In this document: piece by piece, positions 4,737 through 20,110 of the stretch | Layout: each line of letters starts with the position of its first letter | Position numbering within the stretch: position 1 is the stretch's first letter | Source of the DNA: a virus | Strand: one strand, 5' to 3' | IMG/VR virus record: IMGVR_UViG_3300047560_000330 | Coordinates: 1-45,175 of that record | DNA length: 45,175 nucleotides | Translations under genes and position numbers: made by a program | The notes under the pieces: model-generated | Database searches by the model: none | Told to the model about the DNA's origin: nothing | What the model saw: the letters and a program-made list of their open reading frames with translations, nothing else

Positions 4737-5041
4737 TCTTGCTCCTTAATAAACGTTCCCTCTGGTGTAAGGTACCCCTTACGAAATTGAATCTCTGTAT
4801 AAGCTCCTTGCAAACAGTTAACAAGGTTGATGTCCAAGATAGCGCACACCATAATCAACGTTACAACAACGTCACCAACAGCATCCTTGGTTGCTTCCAA
4901 GTCTTTACGATTGATAGCGTCCAGCAACTCTGTTACTTCCTCAAGCGTCTTGATAGCCTGAGAGATAGCTTTACCGTTCTTTACGATACCTCTTGCTTCA
5001 CCCCAACGCAATACATCCATCTCTACCTCTGCATAACTCAT
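4733..5041 (-). CDS. MazG-like nucleotide pyrophosphohydrolase
   Basis: This is a 102-residue all-helical protein. Its EEVTELLDA (about residues 34-42) and DAVGDVVVTL (about residues 53-62) match the paired acidic metal sites (ExxE and ExxD type) of the MazG/dUTPase-like NTP pyrophosphatases. Such enzymes hydrolyse NTPs or dNTPs to monophosphates and may adjust nucleotide pools or alarmone signalling during infection. It lies in the leftward block, coupled to a micro-protein upstream and to the DUF6378-like gene downstream. Substrate cannot be read from the sequence. Confidence 0.75.
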   Translation of the reverse strand: MSYAEVEMDVLRWGEARGIVKNGKAISQAIKTLEEVTELLDAINRKDLEATKDAVGDVVVTLIMVCAILDINLVNCLQGAYTEIQFRKGYLTPEGTFIKEQE

Positions 5042-5124: not shown

Positions 5125-5353
5125 CTTGTTCTTCCCTCAATGCTTCAATGTGTTTAAGCTTAGCCTGCTCTACATCTCCTTCGATGTATAACCAACGCTC
5201 TTGTTCACGCGCTGTCATGTTGAGAGGCATACGCTTCGCTTCCTTTACCCAGACTGACATGCTGTTCTGTGTGTCCTGCCCAAAGGGTAGTCTAGAGACA
5301 CGACTAGCAATCTCATCCAGGGCATCATTCCATCCTTGGTCATAGGGTCCCAT
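5117..5353 (-). CDS. Small hypothetical phage protein
   Basis: This is a 78-residue charged protein (MGPYDQGWNDALDEIASRV at the start). The GWNDALDEIA opening is common among small unnamed phage proteins. The ATG at 5353 has AAGGAG five bases upstream. A GTG six bases earlier would overlap that site and is less likely. Confidence 0.62.
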   Translation of the reverse strand: MGPYDQGWNDALDEIASRVSRLPFGQDTQNSMSVWVKEAKRMPLNMTAREQERWLYIEGDVEQAKLKHIEALREEQDD

Positions 5354-5368
5354 AGTCACTCCTTGTTA

Positions 5369-5581
5369 TTAGGAACTTGAACTAGCTAACAAACCTTTTG
5401 ACTTCCACTTTTTGTGGTCTTGACTACCAGGACGTAATGGTTGGATGTAATCACCATCTCCTGTTCTGTACACTCCACGCAAGAACATGTTGTCATTAGG
5501 CACGGAGCCTACTTCAAAAGATACTTTGGTTTTCTCCTTGATCTCTTTAAAGTACTCCAGTGTGGCCTTGTCTTTCTTCAT
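5369..5581 (-). CDS. Hypothetical protein
   Basis: This is a 70-residue protein. A helical N-terminus (KATLEYFKEIKEKTKVSF) precedes a short beta-rich part with RGVYRTGDGDYIQPL and a Ser-rich end. I start it at 5581, where ATGA overlaps the previous stop with GGAGGAG upstream. An ATG 72 bases earlier lies inside that gene. No family is recognised. Confidence 0.6.
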   Translation of the reverse strand: MKKDKATLEYFKEIKEKTKVSFEVGSVPNDNMFLRGVYRTGDGDYIQPLRPGSQDHKKWKSKGLLASSSS

Positions 5582-13383: not shown

Positions 13384-14505
13384 TTAAGCGTTCTTGCCGT
13401 ACACCTTGGTGTATAGCTCGTCAGCAACCTTACGTTGTGTGTCATTCAACTTGTTCAAGTACACAAGAGAAAAAGATTGCTTGAGTGTGCAACCTGATTG
13501 AACTTTGCGACAGATACTGAACAACGAACGAGGTGACATCGTAAGACTAAACTGATTTGCTTTGTAACCTGTACGAACCAAGTTAGCTAGTTTGACTAGC
13601 TCCTTGACTGCTTTGGCATTGATACCAGAGAACTTGTTCTTCAGCATTGTTTCTTCGATCTCTGGTCGTAAGTAGTCAATGTAGACTGCTGTACCGAAAC
13701 GATCCAATGTAGCAGAGTTTTGAACGTTAGTGCCTGCATGAGCACCTGTCTCATCACCCTGACCTTGGGTATTACCGATAGCAACGATCCTAAAGTCTTT
13801 GTGAGGCACGATTTGTTTGTCAGCAGTACTACCTGGCATTTCTTTCAAGAACAGCTTGCCATCATCCTCTAAGAGCCATTGCAGACCCATTGAGATTTCT
13901 GGAGGTGTTACGTCCCACTCGTCCCAAGCAAACACAGCGCCGTATCGAACTGCTTCGGTAACTGCACCATCAACCCAATGTGTTGAACCATCTTTAGCCG
14001 TTAACTGACCAAAGATCATTGAGCTATCCATATCCCCAGTGCAATTAACACGAACGAAAGGCCGCCGAGTAAGAGCACAAAGCTGCTCAATAAGACTAGA
14101 CTTACCAGCTCCAGTAGGACCGTAACAAAGTACTTTCTCATTTAGTTCCCAAGCTCGTAGGATGTTAGAAGCCAGCTCAGTATCTATCACGTATGACTTG
14201 TTGATAGCTGGTATGAATGATGAGATGCGGGCATCCCAATCGCTGTCGTCAAAGACTGTTACTGGAAAGTCTGAGTCAACATGCGCTGCAACAATGTCTG
14301 ATAACCATCGCTGAGAGTCTTTCAACTCTACGCTTGCAGAAACTGTTGTTTCTACGCCACAGTCTTCAGTTGTTTCTTCTTCTTTCATTGTTACTGGTAA
14401 CACGTCTTCTGTTGTTTTACGCTTGTCGAGAGCTTCCTTCAAAGCTTTCTTAACAAGGTCTTCCACTTTTGGTGGACTTGCTTTTGCTCCTGCTGGACTT
14501 GTCAT
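13384..14505 (-). CDS. AAA+ ATPase, MoxR/CobS-like
   Basis: This is a 373-residue protein. A charged, probably flexible N-terminus of about 100 residues precedes an AAA+ core with Walker A GPTGAGKSS (about residues 129-137), Walker B AVFAWDEWD (about 190-198), sensor 1 IVAIGNTQG (about 240) and an arginine-finger-type LDRFG (about 267). It resembles CobS/MoxR ATPases, which remodel a partner with a vWA domain. That partner is the next gene upstream, overlapping by four bases. In bacteria such pairs insert metals or mature enzymes and transporters. What the phage remodels is unknown. Confidence 0.8.
   Translation of the reverse strand: MTSPAGAKASPPKVEDLVKKALKEALDKRKTTEDVLPVTMKEEETTEDCGVETTVSASVELKDSQRWLSDIVAAHVDSDFPVTVFDDSDWDARISSFIPAINKSYVIDTELASNILRAWELNEKVLCYGPTGAGKSSLIEQLCALTRRPFVRVNCTGDMDSSMIFGQLTAKDGSTHWVDGAVTEAVRYGAVFAWDEWDVTPPEISMGLQWLLEDDGKLFLKEMPGSTADKQIVPHKDFRIVAIGNTQGQGDETGAHAGTNVQNSATLDRFGTAVYIDYLRPEIEETMLKNKFSGINAKAVKELVKLANLVRTGYKANQFSLTMSPRSLFSICRKVQSGCTLKQSFSLVYLNKLNDTQRKVADELYTKVYGKNA
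14390..14401. repeat. Near-copy of the 12-base palindrome (GTTACTGGTAAC)
   Basis: This copy has one mismatch and lies inside the MoxR-like gene. Other one-mismatch copies lie at 3937-3948, 6036-6047, 8303-8314, 39554-39565, 40613-40624 and 44939-44950. Confidence 0.6.
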
Positions 14506-16298
14506 CGCAATATCTTCCTTTCAATTAACTCAATCAACTTGCTCGGAATGTCTTGGGGCTCGTTAACAACGCTGTGAGCTTTGTAGTAATGCTCAACTGA
14601 ATCGCTACACAAACCTAAGCCATATATCTCAACGTTCTTTGACGCTTCAATCTCTTTGATAACGTTCTCGGTATACCTACCAATGCCGCTACCACCTTTA
14701 CTTGCAGCAGGACTGCCGTCAGACATGACAATCAATAGCTTCTTCTTCTCCTTACGTTTGACCAATCGGTCATACGCCCAAAGAATGTTCTCAGCATCAG
14801 GATTGCCGTGCATGTATGAGCTGCTCATGCCGTAGTACTTTCTCAAATCTTCGTCACTGACTTTGATGTCAGAAAAGTTTTTGTAGATGTACATGACAGG
14901 AGCAATCTCACGACCTACAGCAGTGCGTATTTCGTCGTCAGTAAAACCAAGAATCTCCAATGGAATATTCAAAGTTGTACATACCTCATTGACAAGCAAA
15001 GTCGATGCCATAGCAAACAAGTCTTTTTCACCAGACATAGAACCAGATTTATCGACCAGTACGGTGATAGCTGCATCCAGTGTCTTGTTTTCGATCTTGT
15101 TCTTAAACACACGCTCATTGAATCCAGGTGCATTGAAGCAAATACGAGACAGTCGAGACTGATCCAATTTGCCTTTCTTGACACCATAGACACGCTGAAC
15201 TTTGGCTCTGATCTGAATCAAACGCCTAACCTGTTGAGCAAAGTTTTCTTGAGAGACTAGTTTAGGAGTCACTCGACGACTGAACTCATGGTTAATGTGA
15301 TTAGCAGTGCTTACTAGCTGGTACTTAGCGTCACCAACAGCTTTGGGATAGTTGACAACAACAAACTTGTTGAAGTCAGTTAAGTCCCAATCTCCAGTTT
15401 CACTCTTTACAGGTTTGAAGTTGATACCTACCTTACTCATGCCTGACTCTTCAGGAATGGTTACAGAATACTTGTTTAAGTCTTCTTCGGTAACAACTAC
15501 TTCGATGATCTTGTAATCAGAGTCATCTTTGCCGTGTCTGCGTTCTCCTTCGGAGTCTTCAGATTCACCTGCTTTGCCACTCTTAGAGGATGCTTTAGCT
15601 CCCTTTCCATCCTCATCACCTTCGTCCCCTTCGGGACTCAGTTTTGGTTTTGGAAGTTCTTCCTTGCATTTCTCATCTAGCTCATTGAGGATGTCCTCAG
15701 CAAGTTTGAAAGTAGCTTCTGTGCCCAATCTCTTGTCTATGATCGCATGACAATCAATAAGACGATCACAATAGTTACTAAGAACATCTAGGATTTTCTT
15801 GTTAGGAGTTACTCGGCTTGCAGCTAACTCAATTTGTGGAAATGCGTGAGCAGAGAGTCGAGCTTCCCAATAGATCAAGGCTTCTACGAGCACTGACATG
15901 GTTGTTTTCTCTTTCTTGGATTTAGACAAGATGTCCTGTACCAAGATAGAGCTGCAATCATCCCAGTTCTCTTTGAAACCCAAATACTCTTTGGCTTCGA
16001 TCATGTTGATGCGTGAATCCTCAAGGAAGTTCCACACAAACATCAGCAAACCTTTTGGGTTAGCTTTCTTCTCTTTAAGAACATCAAAACAACTGAATTT
16101 ATCGTGTGCAACCTCGTGGTCAACAGATGCCATCAGTTGTTTGAGTTCCATGTCGGTAGTTTTGTACGTAATCCGTGGAAGATAGATGGTTCGACCATCA
16201 TGCCTTGGTTGGTTTACGTCTTCAAATACGACAGAGATACCAGCACGACCTGCGCTGGCTCTGACGTACTTCATCACCTCAATGCCTTGTGTGAGCAT
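14502..16298 (-). CDS. CobT-like vWA protein with metallopeptidase-like motif
   Basis: This is a 598-residue protein. The C-terminal von Willebrand A domain has the MIDAS motif VDKSGSMSG (about residues 410-418) and LLIVMSDGSP (about 520-529). The N-terminal part contains VDHEVAHDKF (about residues 64-73), an HExxH-type zinc motif, and NFLEDSRIN (about 96-104), which could give the third ligand. This HExxH, LED and vWA layout is seen in proteins paired with MoxR/CobS ATPases. An acidic, low-complexity stretch of about 60 residues separates the halves. It starts on a TAATG junction with the gene upstream and overlaps the ATPase gene downstream. Confidence 0.8.
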   Translation of the reverse strand: MLTQGIEVMKYVRASAGRAGISVVFEDVNQPRHDGRTIYLPRITYKTTDMELKQLMASVDHEVAHDKFSCFDVLKEKKANPKGLLMFVWNFLEDSRINMIEAKEYLGFKENWDDCSSILVQDILSKSKKEKTTMSVLVEALIYWEARLSAHAFPQIELAASRVTPNKKILDVLSNYCDRLIDCHAIIDKRLGTEATFKLAEDILNELDEKCKEELPKPKLSPEGDEGDEDGKGAKASSKSGKAGESEDSEGERRHGKDDSDYKIIEVVVTEEDLNKYSVTIPEESGMSKVGINFKPVKSETGDWDLTDFNKFVVVNYPKAVGDAKYQLVSTANHINHEFSRRVTPKLVSQENFAQQVRRLIQIRAKVQRVYGVKKGKLDQSRLSRICFNAPGFNERVFKNKIENKTLDAAITVLVDKSGSMSGEKDLFAMASTLLVNEVCTTLNIPLEILGFTDDEIRTAVGREIAPVMYIYKNFSDIKVSDEDLRKYYGMSSSYMHGNPDAENILWAYDRLVKRKEKKKLLIVMSDGSPAASKGGSGIGRYTENVIKEIEASKNVEIYGLGLCSDSVEHYYKAHSVVNEPQDIPSKLIELIERKILR

Positions 16299-18026: not shown

Positions 18027-18320
18027 TTAATAGATTTCGGGACGTGTGTCCCACTTGTCAGGAACGTACCTGGAACTAACAAAATTGTTATTAGGAACAA
18101 GTACAGGGTCTTCAAGAGAGATGATGTAGTCTCTCCATTGAGTGTCAGATAAACAGTCGTACATCTTCTTACGAGTCAAGTCCATCTCCAGATCAATGGG
18201 AGACATATCGACTCCGTATGTACGACAGCCGTGCAACCATTCGATGTCAGTGACACCGTGGTTAGAAGGACGGATGGTGAAGCATCTATCCTTCATAGAG
18301 ATAACAGCGTGATAGAACAT
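18027..18320 (-). CDS. Hypothetical early protein
   Basis: This is a 97-residue protein with no recognised family (MFYHAVISMKDRCFTIRPS at the start, many aromatic and Asp residues after). GGAG lies seven bases upstream of the ATG. A terminator hairpin ends 20 bases upstream of the start, so expression probably depends on read-through. Confidence 0.62.
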   Translation of the reverse strand: MFYHAVISMKDRCFTIRPSNHGVTDIEWLHGCRTYGVDMSPIDLEMDLTRKKMYDCLSDTQWRDYIISLEDPVLVPNNNFVSSRYVPDKWDTRPEIY

Positions 18321-18340
18321 GTAGTTCTCCAGTTGATTGG

Positions 18341-18375
18341 TAAAAGAAAAAGGTAGTAGAGTGAACTACTACCTT
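18341..18375 (-). terminator. Terminator after the first leftward gene
   Basis: On the minus strand, a perfect ten-base-pair stem (AAGGTAGTAG with CTACTACCTT) and six-base loop run into TTTTTCTTTT. It lies 15 bases past the stop of the 77-residue gene. With the next gene starting 20 bases later, it may act as an attenuator that makes the first gene's message most abundant. Confidence 0.75.
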
Positions 18376-18389
18376 GATCAAGACCCACA

Positions 18390-18623
18390 TTAGATGGGAG
18401 AAGCTTCAGCACGAGCGAGAGCGTCAGCCTTGAGCTGAGTACGCAGCGTCTTGAGTGCATTGAGAGCGTCACGAACCTCCACTTGACGTGGGTTGTCGTA
18501 CTTCTCCATGCTCCAGAGAGCGTTAGACAGCAGCTGTTGTGCCAAGAAGATTTGTAAGCCAGCAGGCTTACGTTCTGTCATAGCGTTAAAGCCGTTGAAA
18601 TCGAAATTGTTTTGTTGAGACAT
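18390..18623 (-). CDS. First gene of the leftward block, hypothetical
   Basis: This is a 77-residue protein with a disordered Asn/Gln-rich opening (MSQQNNFDFNGFNAM) and a helical remainder (LAQQLLSNALWSMEKYDN, DALNALKTLRTQLKADAL). AGGAG lies six bases upstream of the ATG. It is the gene nearest the divergent control region and is followed by its own terminator, so it is likely strongly and early expressed. This would suit a host-takeover or regulatory role, but no motif shows one. Confidence 0.65.
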   Translation of the reverse strand: MSQQNNFDFNGFNAMTERKPAGLQIFLAQQLLSNALWSMEKYDNPRQVEVRDALNALKTLRTQLKADALARAEASPI

Positions 18624-18655
18624 AGCTAACTCCTAGTTTGTTGAGAATTGAGGGG

Positions 18656-18865
18656 ATTTAGCCCCCTCACAAAACGGTGAAGCGTGGCAAGGCGCAACGC
18701 GCCGCAGTCCCGACCGAAGGGAGGGATTGACCAAGCACTAAGGCGCAAGCCCGAAGCGCGGAACGCGCGGAGCCATGCCACAAAGGAGGAGCGAAGCGAC
18801 GAACGACTGGCGTGGTTAGTGCAAGCGAAGCGGGTCAACCTAAGCGGGAACCGTGGGGGCTAAAT
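18656..18865 (+). ncRNA. Candidate structured RNA of about 210 bases, closed by an 11-bp stem
   Basis: Perfect outer stem: ATTTAGCCCCC (18656-18666) pairs with GGGGGCTAAAT (18855-18865). It is extended by ACGGT (18674-18678) with ACCGT (18850-18854). Nested inside are TTGACC (18727-18732) with GGTCAA (18833-18838), GCACTAA (18735-18741) with TTAGTGC (18816-18822), and CCATGCCA (18773-18780) with TGGCGTGG (18808-18815). Hairpins include GGCGC-AAC-GCGCC (18691-18703), GGC-GCAA-GCC with a GNRA loop (18742-18751) and GCGCG-GAA-CGCGC (18756-18768). The U-G wobble and GNRA loop favour the plus strand. It lies between the divergent blocks, before the terminase genes. I recognise no known RNA family. 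Confidence 0.5.
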
Positions 18866-19131
18866 AACAGCAAGTCTTAATAAACGTACAGGAGAGTTAG
18901 CTTCGTCTAAACGTATGTAGATCAACGCCAACGTAGTGACGGAATAGAAGCCTGTTATAGCTACGATCTAGGTACATAGCTGTCGGAGTATCAACGCATA
19001 CCAAACGACACCAAGAAAGTAGGTTTAAAGCGGTTAGATTAGCTACTAAGTTAGGGGGGGATATGTGTAGCTAAGTTGTTGTCAGATAAGGTGTTGCAAT
19101 AAAACAACAATGTCAACAAGAAACATAGCCT
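18866..19131. other. Non-coding stretch between RNA candidate and DnaA boxes
   Basis: I find no gene with a ribosome site here on either strand. Short direct repeats such as TAGCTA and CTAAGTT occur. Leftward and rightward promoters are expected somewhere in this region, but no clear -35/-10 pair is visible. Confidence 0.4.
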
Positions 19132-19151
19132 TGTGGATAAGTTGTGGATAA
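19132..19151 (-). promoter_or_regulatory. Two tandem perfect DnaA boxes
   Basis: TGTGGATAA occurs at 19132-19140 and again at 19143-19151, which is TTATCCACA twice on the minus strand, separated by two bases (an 11-base period, one helical turn). TTATCCACA is the high-affinity binding sequence of bacterial DnaA. I saw no further perfect copy in the window. Confidence 0.75.
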
Positions 19152-19250
19152 GTACTAGAGTACTACCTAGATATTGTTGTGTACCCTAAACCTAGTAGTA
19201 GTTGTAGGGGTATAGGGGGGAAATATTTTGTTTATAAGAATTTACTTATA
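19132..19250. other. Putative replication origin region
   Basis: The DnaA box pair is followed about 70 bases later by an AT-rich stretch (19221-19250, AAATATTTTG then TTTATAAGAA) that could unwind easily. Together they form the minimal layout of a DnaA-dependent origin. They lie in the only long non-coding region of the genome, between the divergent blocks. The phage has its own primase, helicase and polymerase but no initiator I recognise, which leaves initiation to host DnaA as a plausible reading. Confidence 0.45.
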
Positions 19251-19313
19251 GCAACTTACAACGCTACAGTAATTTTTTAAACAAGAGGGGGTTACTACTC
19301 GTTATAGATGCTC

Positions 19314-19353
19314 GGTACTACGTACCTCGCATACTGAACATCTGCTACGCAGA
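19314..19353. other. Twin small inverted repeats with TAC centres
   Basis: GGTAC-TAC-GTACC (19314-19326) and TCTGC-TAC-GCAGA (19341-19353) are two five-base inverted repeats with the same three-base centre, with first bases 27 apart. They could be protein-binding sites or small hairpins in the control region. Confidence 0.35.
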
Positions 19354-19481
19354 CATAGTTGTTCTCTACTTAACCCCAAAGAAAGAAAACAGTAAAAGAA
19401 AGAAACGCCGTTAGTGTCTCGTTTTGAAAATACCTTGTCAAGTCCACCAAAGGTATTCATTCGTAAAATATTTCTTCTATG

Positions 19482-19499
19482 TTGTCACATCCGTGACAA
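19482..19499. promoter_or_regulatory. Operator-like inverted repeat upstream of terminase
   Basis: TTGTCAC-ATCC-GTGACAA is a perfect seven-base inverted repeat with a four-base spacer. It lies about 20 bases upstream of the likely -10 element for the rightward late block, where a dimeric regulator could bind. No candidate repressor gene is recognised in the window, so the binder could be host-encoded. Confidence 0.5.
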
Positions 19500-19518
19500 T
19501 GTTCAGATTCTAGAAGGA

Positions 19519-19527
19519 TGGTATAGT
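19519..19527 (+). promoter_or_regulatory. Possible extended -10 promoter for the rightward block
   Basis: TG-G-TATAGT is a good extended -10 element, 28 bases before the small terminase start. No convincing -35 box is present at 17 bases upstream, so it may need an activator or rely on the extended -10. It is the best promoter candidate for the rightward genes. Confidence 0.4.
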
Positions 19528-19555
19528 CCACCCCAATCAAGTTAGGAGTCAATCA

Positions 19556-20110
19556 ATGCGTAGACCCAAGTCCCATGATCGTCGTTACAAGAAGTCCATC
19601 TGGACTCAGAACCAGAAGCTACAAGCTGTCAGTACGTACCTGATGCTAGGTAACCTGGCTGAGACAGCTGTTGTAACGGGAGTACCTCTTCCTACATTGA
19701 AGATGTGGAAGACTACTGACTGGTTCAAGGAATACGCTCTTCAGCTTCAGTCTGAGGATGTTCAACAGATGTCTTCTTCTATGAAGAAGGTTATTGACAA
19801 AGCTCTTAAAGCTGTTGAAGATCGTTTAGACCTGGGTGATGCTCAGTTTGATCAACGTACTGGTGGGATTGTTAGGGTTCCTGTTAAGGCTCACGTAGCC
19901 TTGAAGATCACTACTGATCTAATGACTAAGCAAGAGAAGCTCTTAGCTAACCCCGTTAAAGAGCAGGTTGAGAAGACTATTGATGATCGTCTGCTTAAGC
20001 TGTCAGAGGAGTTTGCTAAGTTTGCTAGTGGCAAGTTATCCAATGCCGTACCTGTAGATGTGGAGGTTCGGGAACTGAACCGGACGGAGGCTAAGGTTGT
20101 CACGCCTTAA
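19556..20110 (+). CDS. terS: Terminase small subunit
   Basis: This is a 184-residue protein. The basic N-terminus and a helix-turn-helix-like segment (KLQAVSTYLMLGNLAETAVV, then GVPLPTLKMWKTTDWF) match the DNA-recognition part of small terminases. A helical oligomerisation region follows. It selects phage DNA for packaging and hands it to the large subunit, whose gene follows with a 14-base overlap. AGGAG lies seven bases upstream of the ATG. The operator-like repeat and -10 element sit just before it. Confidence 0.82.
   Translation: MRRPKSHDRRYKKSIWTQNQKLQAVSTYLMLGNLAETAVVTGVPLPTLKMWKTTDWFKEYALQLQSEDVQQMSSSMKKVIDKALKAVEDRLDLGDAQFDQRTGGIVRVPVKAHVALKITTDLMTKQEKLLANPVKEQVEKTIDDRLLKLSEEFAKFASGKLSNAVPVDVEVRELNRTEAKVVTP

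Follow-up and report, generated by a model that had tools for sequence, protein, structure and literature searches.

What kind of element lies between the two divergent gene blocks of this phage genome, how far does it extend, and which strand encodes it? The window analysed here is the whole 45,175-nt IMG/VR virus record IMGVR_UViG_3300047560_000330 (positions 1-45,175). Its leftward gene block starts at 18623 and holds genes for DNA polymerase, a DnaB-like helicase, primase and exonuclease together with CobS/CobT-like genes (a CobS-like ATPase and a CobT-like protein, at 13384-16298), and the rightward block runs from 19556 through a gene in the TerS position, TerL, portal and capsid. We call the gene at 19556 TerS by its position before TerL alone; it had no family match. 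The first leftward gene, p77, is a small one, and the element lies between it and the rightward block, at the point where GC skew and gene direction both switch. A reading made from the letters of this DNA (hereafter the sequence-only reading) had proposed a novel structured RNA at 18656-18865. Comparison with related loci supports a larger picture, in which this segment would form the multi-branched apical part of a large structured RNA that is encoded on the plus strand and has a long imperfect stem (Table 1).

Table 1. Positions of p77, the predicted RNA and neighbouring elements in the window
Feature	Positions	Strand	Basis or remark
Intrinsic terminator of p77	18350-18375	-	GGTAGTAG...CTACTACC and a T run; strong, in most relatives
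p77, conserved gene of 77 codons	18390-18623	-	residues conserved, synonymous codons vary
5' arm, antisense of p77 and its leader	18443-18655	+	plus-strand fold; duplex against shuffles
Competing local hairpin GAGGGG/CCCCTC	18650-18655/18663-18668	+	sequence and version-A homologues
Apical domain (segment first reported)	18656-18865	+	covariation, 38 tested pairs
P1	18656-18666/18855-18865	+	11 bp; ATTTAGCCCCC/GGGGGCTAAAT
P1b	about 18675-18677/18850-18852	+	
P7	18727-18732/18833-18838	+	
P4	18735-18741/18816-18822	+	
P6	18773-18780/18808-18815	+	
P6 core hairpin	18773-18815	+	sole part common to versions A and B; carries the invariant U-G
3' arm, diverged inverted copy of p77 without an open coding frame	18866-19097	+	fold; arm alignment
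Two perfect DnaA boxes, TTATCCACA	19132-19151	-	11 bp apart
Candidate leftward promoter, TTGACA-17-GACACT	19413-19441	-	recurs at the same place in relatives

A covarying apical domain and its strand

The perfect 11-bp inverted repeat described by the sequence-only reading is exact; it forms P1 and closes a conserved multi-branched RNA domain. The helices said to nest inside it are real as well, with P1, P1b, P7, P4 and P6 all located in the segment, and further parts include P1c, the P2 and P3 hairpins and a P5 hairpin with a GCAA loop. GNRA-type loops do occur, for example GGC-GCAA-GCC at 18742-18751. As had also been noticed, GC content is high in the segment (0.59; its surroundings have about 0.38-0.50); its plus strand is A-rich (AT skew 0.39) and folds at -99.9 kcal/mol (z -4.6, reached by 0 of 200 shuffles), compared with a z of -1.9 for the fold of the minus strand. 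The local hairpin GAGGGG/CCCCTC, absent from the sequence-only reading, is mutually exclusive with P1.

It is covariation, and not folding energy alone, that places this structure beyond chance. Among 80 relatives collected by TerL, the apical domain occurs in two versions. In version A, for which 20 homologues were aligned and 38 pairs tested, 96.4% of cells are standard pairs, as against 36-48% paired in controls with slid partners, and 18 pairs show changes on both sides; the covariation score was reached by 0 of 500 shuffles. P4, for instance, occurs as GCACTAA/TTAGTGC, GCAGAAA/TTTCTGC and GCACAAA/TTTGTGC, and P7 as TTGACC/GGTCAA, TTGCC/GGCAA and TTGGCA/TGCCAA; the competing GAGGGG/CCCCTC hairpin is likewise retained in this version. 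In version B, found in other relatives, the P6 core (CCATGCCACAAAGG...CGACTGGCGTGG) is kept and the 5' hairpin is different; here 28 pairs were tested and 91.4% paired, 18 pairs carry double changes, and again none of 500 shuffles did as well. The sequence-only reading had made its proposal depend in part on compensatory changes in related phages, and these are present in both versions. Thus the comparison confirms the apical domain as a conserved, presumably structured RNA, with compensatory changes above both shuffled and slid controls.

The two versions can differ between close relatives. L071 and L003, the closest relatives of the window by TerL (94 and 92%), both have version B despite p77 genes 94-96% identical to that of the window, and therefore the apical domain seems to have been exchanged as a module between phages.

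A covariance model built from version A recovers 22 loci at E < 1e-15, 20 of them training sequences, and elsewhere picks up mostly the core. Overall, the RNA group recurs in dozens of uncultivated phage genomes, with a related element directly upstream of p77 in nearly all relatives that retain p77 and its upstream flank. In named phages, positions 18300-19600 had no DNA match and p77 had none either, and a scan of genome contigs with p77 found no relative; the nearest TerL proteins in named phages, those of MW202796 and OK172329, are 48-52% identical, and the corresponding regions of these two genomes showed no similar element by eye. Searches for the P6 motif also returned a number of look-alikes. 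One is an attC-like hairpin beside a tyrosine recombinase (L089, 3063-3260) and another a hairpin in which the motif takes the form GGTTC/GGTTC, at the end of a filamentous-phage-like contig with a Zot-like gene (L131, 8519-8547); both are read as probable convergence, since a palindrome makes such a pattern far likelier to occur. Pattern matches in L086, L090, L095, L105, L111 and similar contigs were set aside as coding or chance.

The preference of the sequence-only reading for the plus strand holds up, and on more evidence than was first named. The U-G pair to which it pointed lies in P6 and is invariant in 38 of 38 aligned homologues (20/20 in version A and 18/18 in version B). G-U outnumbers A-C by 23 to 1 in version A, where the invariant pair accounts for 20 of the 23, and by 62 to 2 in version B, or 44 to 2 once the invariant U-G is dropped. 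P1c carries a tandem G-A in most homologues; in many version-A sequences it reads GUGAGGG/CCCGAAC, which gives tandem G-A on the plus strand and U-C on the minus. The mean folding z across homologues is lower for the plus strand. The G-U excess, the invariant U-G and the tandem G-A of P1c therefore favour an RNA encoded on the plus strand.

The converse possibility, that the minus strand is functional as a structured 5' leader of the p77 transcript and controls p77 translation, seems to us very improbable. It draws on the candidate leftward promoter, which recurs among relatives and would transcribe the whole element ahead of p77, and on a minus strand that also folds better than shuffles. This promoter has an exact -35 and a weak -10, with a mean score not above shuffles; it is a possible start of the p77 transcript and, lying to the right of the RNA, may mean that the minus strand is transcribed across the element too. 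Read as minus-strand RNA, however, the apical domain would have to accommodate the G-U/A-C asymmetry, a C-A mismatch that never varies in P6, and mismatched U-C in P1c; and at 33 of 36 loci the full element is less stable on the minus strand. A search of the plus strand to the left of p77 for sigma-70 promoters, the only type sought, gave none above shuffles.

The region between the RNA and the first rightward gene contains two conserved noncoding blocks, one at 19198-19292 with TATAAG...CTTATA and one at 19376-19498 with the leftward TTGACA and an inverted repeat, TTGTCAC...GTGACAA. Three relatives (L025, L027 and L051) have extra leftward genes inserted between the RNA and the TerS position, with a terminator in L025 and L027.

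The predicted long stem and the neighbouring gene p77

With its residues fixed and its codons varying among relatives, p77 is, by this signature, a true protein-coding gene. It had no Pfam or PHROG match. Its predicted structure is a helical hairpin (pLDDT 89.5) with close matches only among uncharacterised phage proteins and no significant match in the PDB.

By comparison of its flanks, the segment is the tip of a far longer predicted hairpin RNA of about 650-880 bases found in uncultivated phages: about 650 nt in the window (18443-19097) and about 740-880 nt in relatives. Thus the sequence-only reading was right that the element is structured and right in its coordinates for the apical domain; it drew the boundaries too narrowly and missed the continuation on both sides as a giant inverted repeat derived from p77. 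In L006, a degenerate p77-like reading lies to the right of the apical domain, and the flanks were therefore recognised as complementary. A second p77 gene in the right flank was considered and rejected, as the region contains stops and is an arm of the inverted repeat. The 5' arm is the complement of p77, so that, of the features of a cis-antisense RNA, complementarity to a coding gene is present.

Arm pairing was judged by shuffles, swapped arms and control folds; an RNAduplex calculation on 420 x 480 nt was discarded as evidence, because sequences of such length always pair. In 32 of 38 homologues the arm duplex is more stable than its dinucleotide shuffles (z < -2); the mean z is -7.1, and the window has -6.4. 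Folded in full, the element has a z of -6.1 on the plus and -4.2 on the minus strand in the window, and of -22 and -10.9, respectively, in L006. Long-range pairs average 114 over 36 loci against 40 in 216 control folds (maximum 87), and in the window positions 18401-19200 are the best-folding 800-nt stretch of the entire 45 kb, with the long stem inside that fold. L021, with L006 one of the two clearest examples, folds at -516.6 kcal/mol with 282 long-range pairs, of which 55 are G-U on the plus strand as against 1 on the minus.

Is the stem itself under selection? Identity between the arms is only about 70-85%. In L021 and L006, 90 and 87% of aligned arm positions, respectively, pair on the plus strand against 72% on the minus; in alignments that score all transitions alike, G-U-type differences outnumber A-C-type ones by 54 to 1 in L021 and by 53 to 5 in L006. 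Pairing also persists over long distances: in L075, L077 and L079, whose p77 genes are only 24-33% identical to that of the window, the arms still pair with their own p77, and in L039, another distant relative, they likewise pair with a very different one. Covariation of the arms among close relatives is modest, with 82 double changes that keep pairing against 59 that break it; pooled shifted partners give 53 against 72 (p = 0.007), and the +3 shift alone p = 0.10.

The strand bias of the arms requires care. In the window and 15 other loci, the G-U excess comes solely from C-to-T changes, A-to-G and G-to-A being about as common as each other (125/1081 against 91/793), and C depletion of the plus strand, which reaches past the arm in L006 and L021, could yield the C-to-T excess in those 16 loci. 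A clear excess of A-to-G over G-to-A is seen only in L021 (15 against 1), L006 (19 against 5), L039 (14 against 2) and L077 (14 against 3). Outside the best preserved loci, the strand bias of the arms is thus partly confounded by C depletion.

It is in this light that we weigh the idea that function resides in the apical RNA alone and that the arms represent an inverted duplication of p77 in decay. The modest arm covariation and a strand bias that can be mutational in part would fit it, as would the window, where the arms pair less strongly than in L006 or L021; indeed, in the lineage of the window the arms, and the right arm especially, look partly decayed. A duplication in general decay is hard to reconcile, however, with pairing that persists across p77 genes so divergent, and loss of C cannot explain the A-to-G bias in L021, L006, L039 and L077. 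We regard decaying arms as a distinctly unlikely explanation for the family.

Comparison with known RNAs

The sequence-only reading recognised no known family, and model searches agree. An Rfam 15 cmscan of the window and 17 related loci, at both gathering and permissive thresholds, returned no match for the element and nothing above chance; GOLLD, ROOL and OLE gave no match at gathering score over the same loci, and the family model of the phi29 packaging RNA (pRNA) none either. The segment is also not a tRNA, tmRNA or RNase P RNA, there being no family-model match or ARAGORN prediction. In Rfam 15 and the open-licence literature, none of the described RNA families matches it in covariance model or architecture.

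An RNA-only oligomeric cage is a defining trait of GOLLD and ROOL. They are large ornate phage RNAs of open role with frequent tRNA neighbours (PMC12286853), and they share with the present element a phage origin, a length of 600-900 nt and an elaborate covarying fold (PMC12286853). This likeness raises a serious competing account, namely that we are dealing with a stand-alone large ornate RNA of the same kind, in which the folded RNA is itself the product, perhaps multimeric or bound by the p77 protein, and overlaps p77 as a side effect of the inverted duplication by which it arose. The size of 650-880 nt, the location in phages and the elaborate fold all suit such an RNA, selection appears to keep the duplex itself, beyond what antisense alone would call for, and a tRNA gene lies just downstream in two distant relatives, L078 and L079 (Ile and Thr, at 5319-5396 and 4852-4928, respectively, in the gap that separates the RNA region from the first rightward gene). 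Such tRNA neighbours are not general here, however, the GOLLD and ROOL families gave no Rfam match, and in place of their architecture we find a rod that has a single apical domain and, in its 5' arm, the antisense of a coding gene. On balance, we think this account unlikely, but not remote.

Other comparisons illuminate single features. The PLE IIR transcript and the ICP1 noncoding RNA of about 800 nt, abundant satellite and phage RNAs (PMC7567579), resemble the element by description: they too are phage or satellite noncoding RNAs, with inverted repeats nearby and either antisense homology to leaders or a similar length. The PLE IIR transcript, however, sits between inverted repeats and matches several leaders (PMC7567579), whereas here the repeats are the arms and cover one whole gene. 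Plant hairpin RNAs from inverted duplications, such as Mu killer (PMC3440606), also contain an inverted gene copy and can pair with the mRNA of that gene; the likeness is one of origin only, as the present element belongs to a bacterial virus with no siRNA pathway and has a conserved apical domain. The phi29 pRNA is likewise a phage RNA, and the element is encoded near packaging genes, but it is much larger. A role as packaging RNA, which had been suggested earlier, finds no support: TerL is ordinary, and the first rightward gene begins 690 bases from the segment.

Possible roles of the RNA

Overlap of the RNA with p77 makes antisense-type control the leading idea, and we give somewhat less than an even chance to a self-locked plus-strand RNA that regulates p77, or the leftward early unit, by an antisense-type mechanism. 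The plus strand would be transcribed as one self-folding RNA whose ends, given the negative promoter search, are putative. Its 5' arm would be perfectly complementary to the p77 mRNA, and the intramolecular stem, with its mismatches and G-U pairs, would be weaker; therefore p77 mRNA could displace the 3' arm, which otherwise would keep the antisense arm locked, while the apical domain may serve as a stabilising or protein-binding cap. The regulated target would be p77, or the leftward early transcription unit that starts with p77 and its terminator, and control might be exerted by a block to translation, by RNase III cleavage or by readthrough of the terminator, all of which are guesses. One aspect is awkward for an antisense mechanism: a self-complementary arm would weaken the regulator.

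An RNA of this kind beside DnaA boxes also invites comparison with the cis-antisense RNAs of phages and plasmids, including ColE1 RNA I/RNA II and Rop, which have in common with it a countertranscript over a small gene near DnaA boxes and competing helices; the self-complementary gene copy within the same RNA is a difference. By analogy, the plus transcript, running toward the DnaA boxes, might prime or gate replication as RNA II does, and p77 mRNA would then act as its countertranscript. The window has just two perfect DnaA boxes in its 45 kb, and the pair sits to the right of the 3' arm at a distance of 35 bases, the switch in GC skew and gene direction falls at the element, the helices GAGGGG/CCCCTC and P1 are mutually exclusive, and p77 is predicted to be a small helical hairpin, Rop-like in shape. 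Yet only about one homologue in three has perfect DnaA boxes near the RNA, and p77 does not qualify as a Rop homologue, given the lack of a Pfam match and Foldseek E values for Rop of 5-6, which are not significant. We therefore hold an origin-linked RNA to be unlikely.

The position of a long inverted repeat beside a putative origin and upstream of terminase might also suggest a signal at the level of DNA, in which a cruciform or a hairpin of single-stranded DNA would serve replication or packaging; DNA, moreover, also tolerates G-T and sheared G-A pairs. However, both the covariation and the loops of the apical domain are typical of RNA, DNA hairpins with arms of this length would be burdensome, and arms of such limited identity fit poorly, so that we consider a DNA signal extremely unlikely.

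Returning to antisense-type control, we tentatively propose that these elements may constitute a new class of RNA in phages. Its members would be about 0.65-0.88 kb long, arisen by inverted gene duplication, and would act as self-paired antisense RNAs: selection would keep the second arm complementary to a changing gene, the ornate cap would be exchangeable, and strand displacement would control the gene or replication. The full proposal is possible rather than probable. Regardless of the mechanism, phages have so far yielded few large structured RNAs. This family shows strong covariation and links a large RNA with a single small gene in a constant layout; its function is therefore directly testable through the arm, the cap or the gene. 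It would be an instance in phages of a hairpin RNA derived from the adjacent gene by inverted copying.
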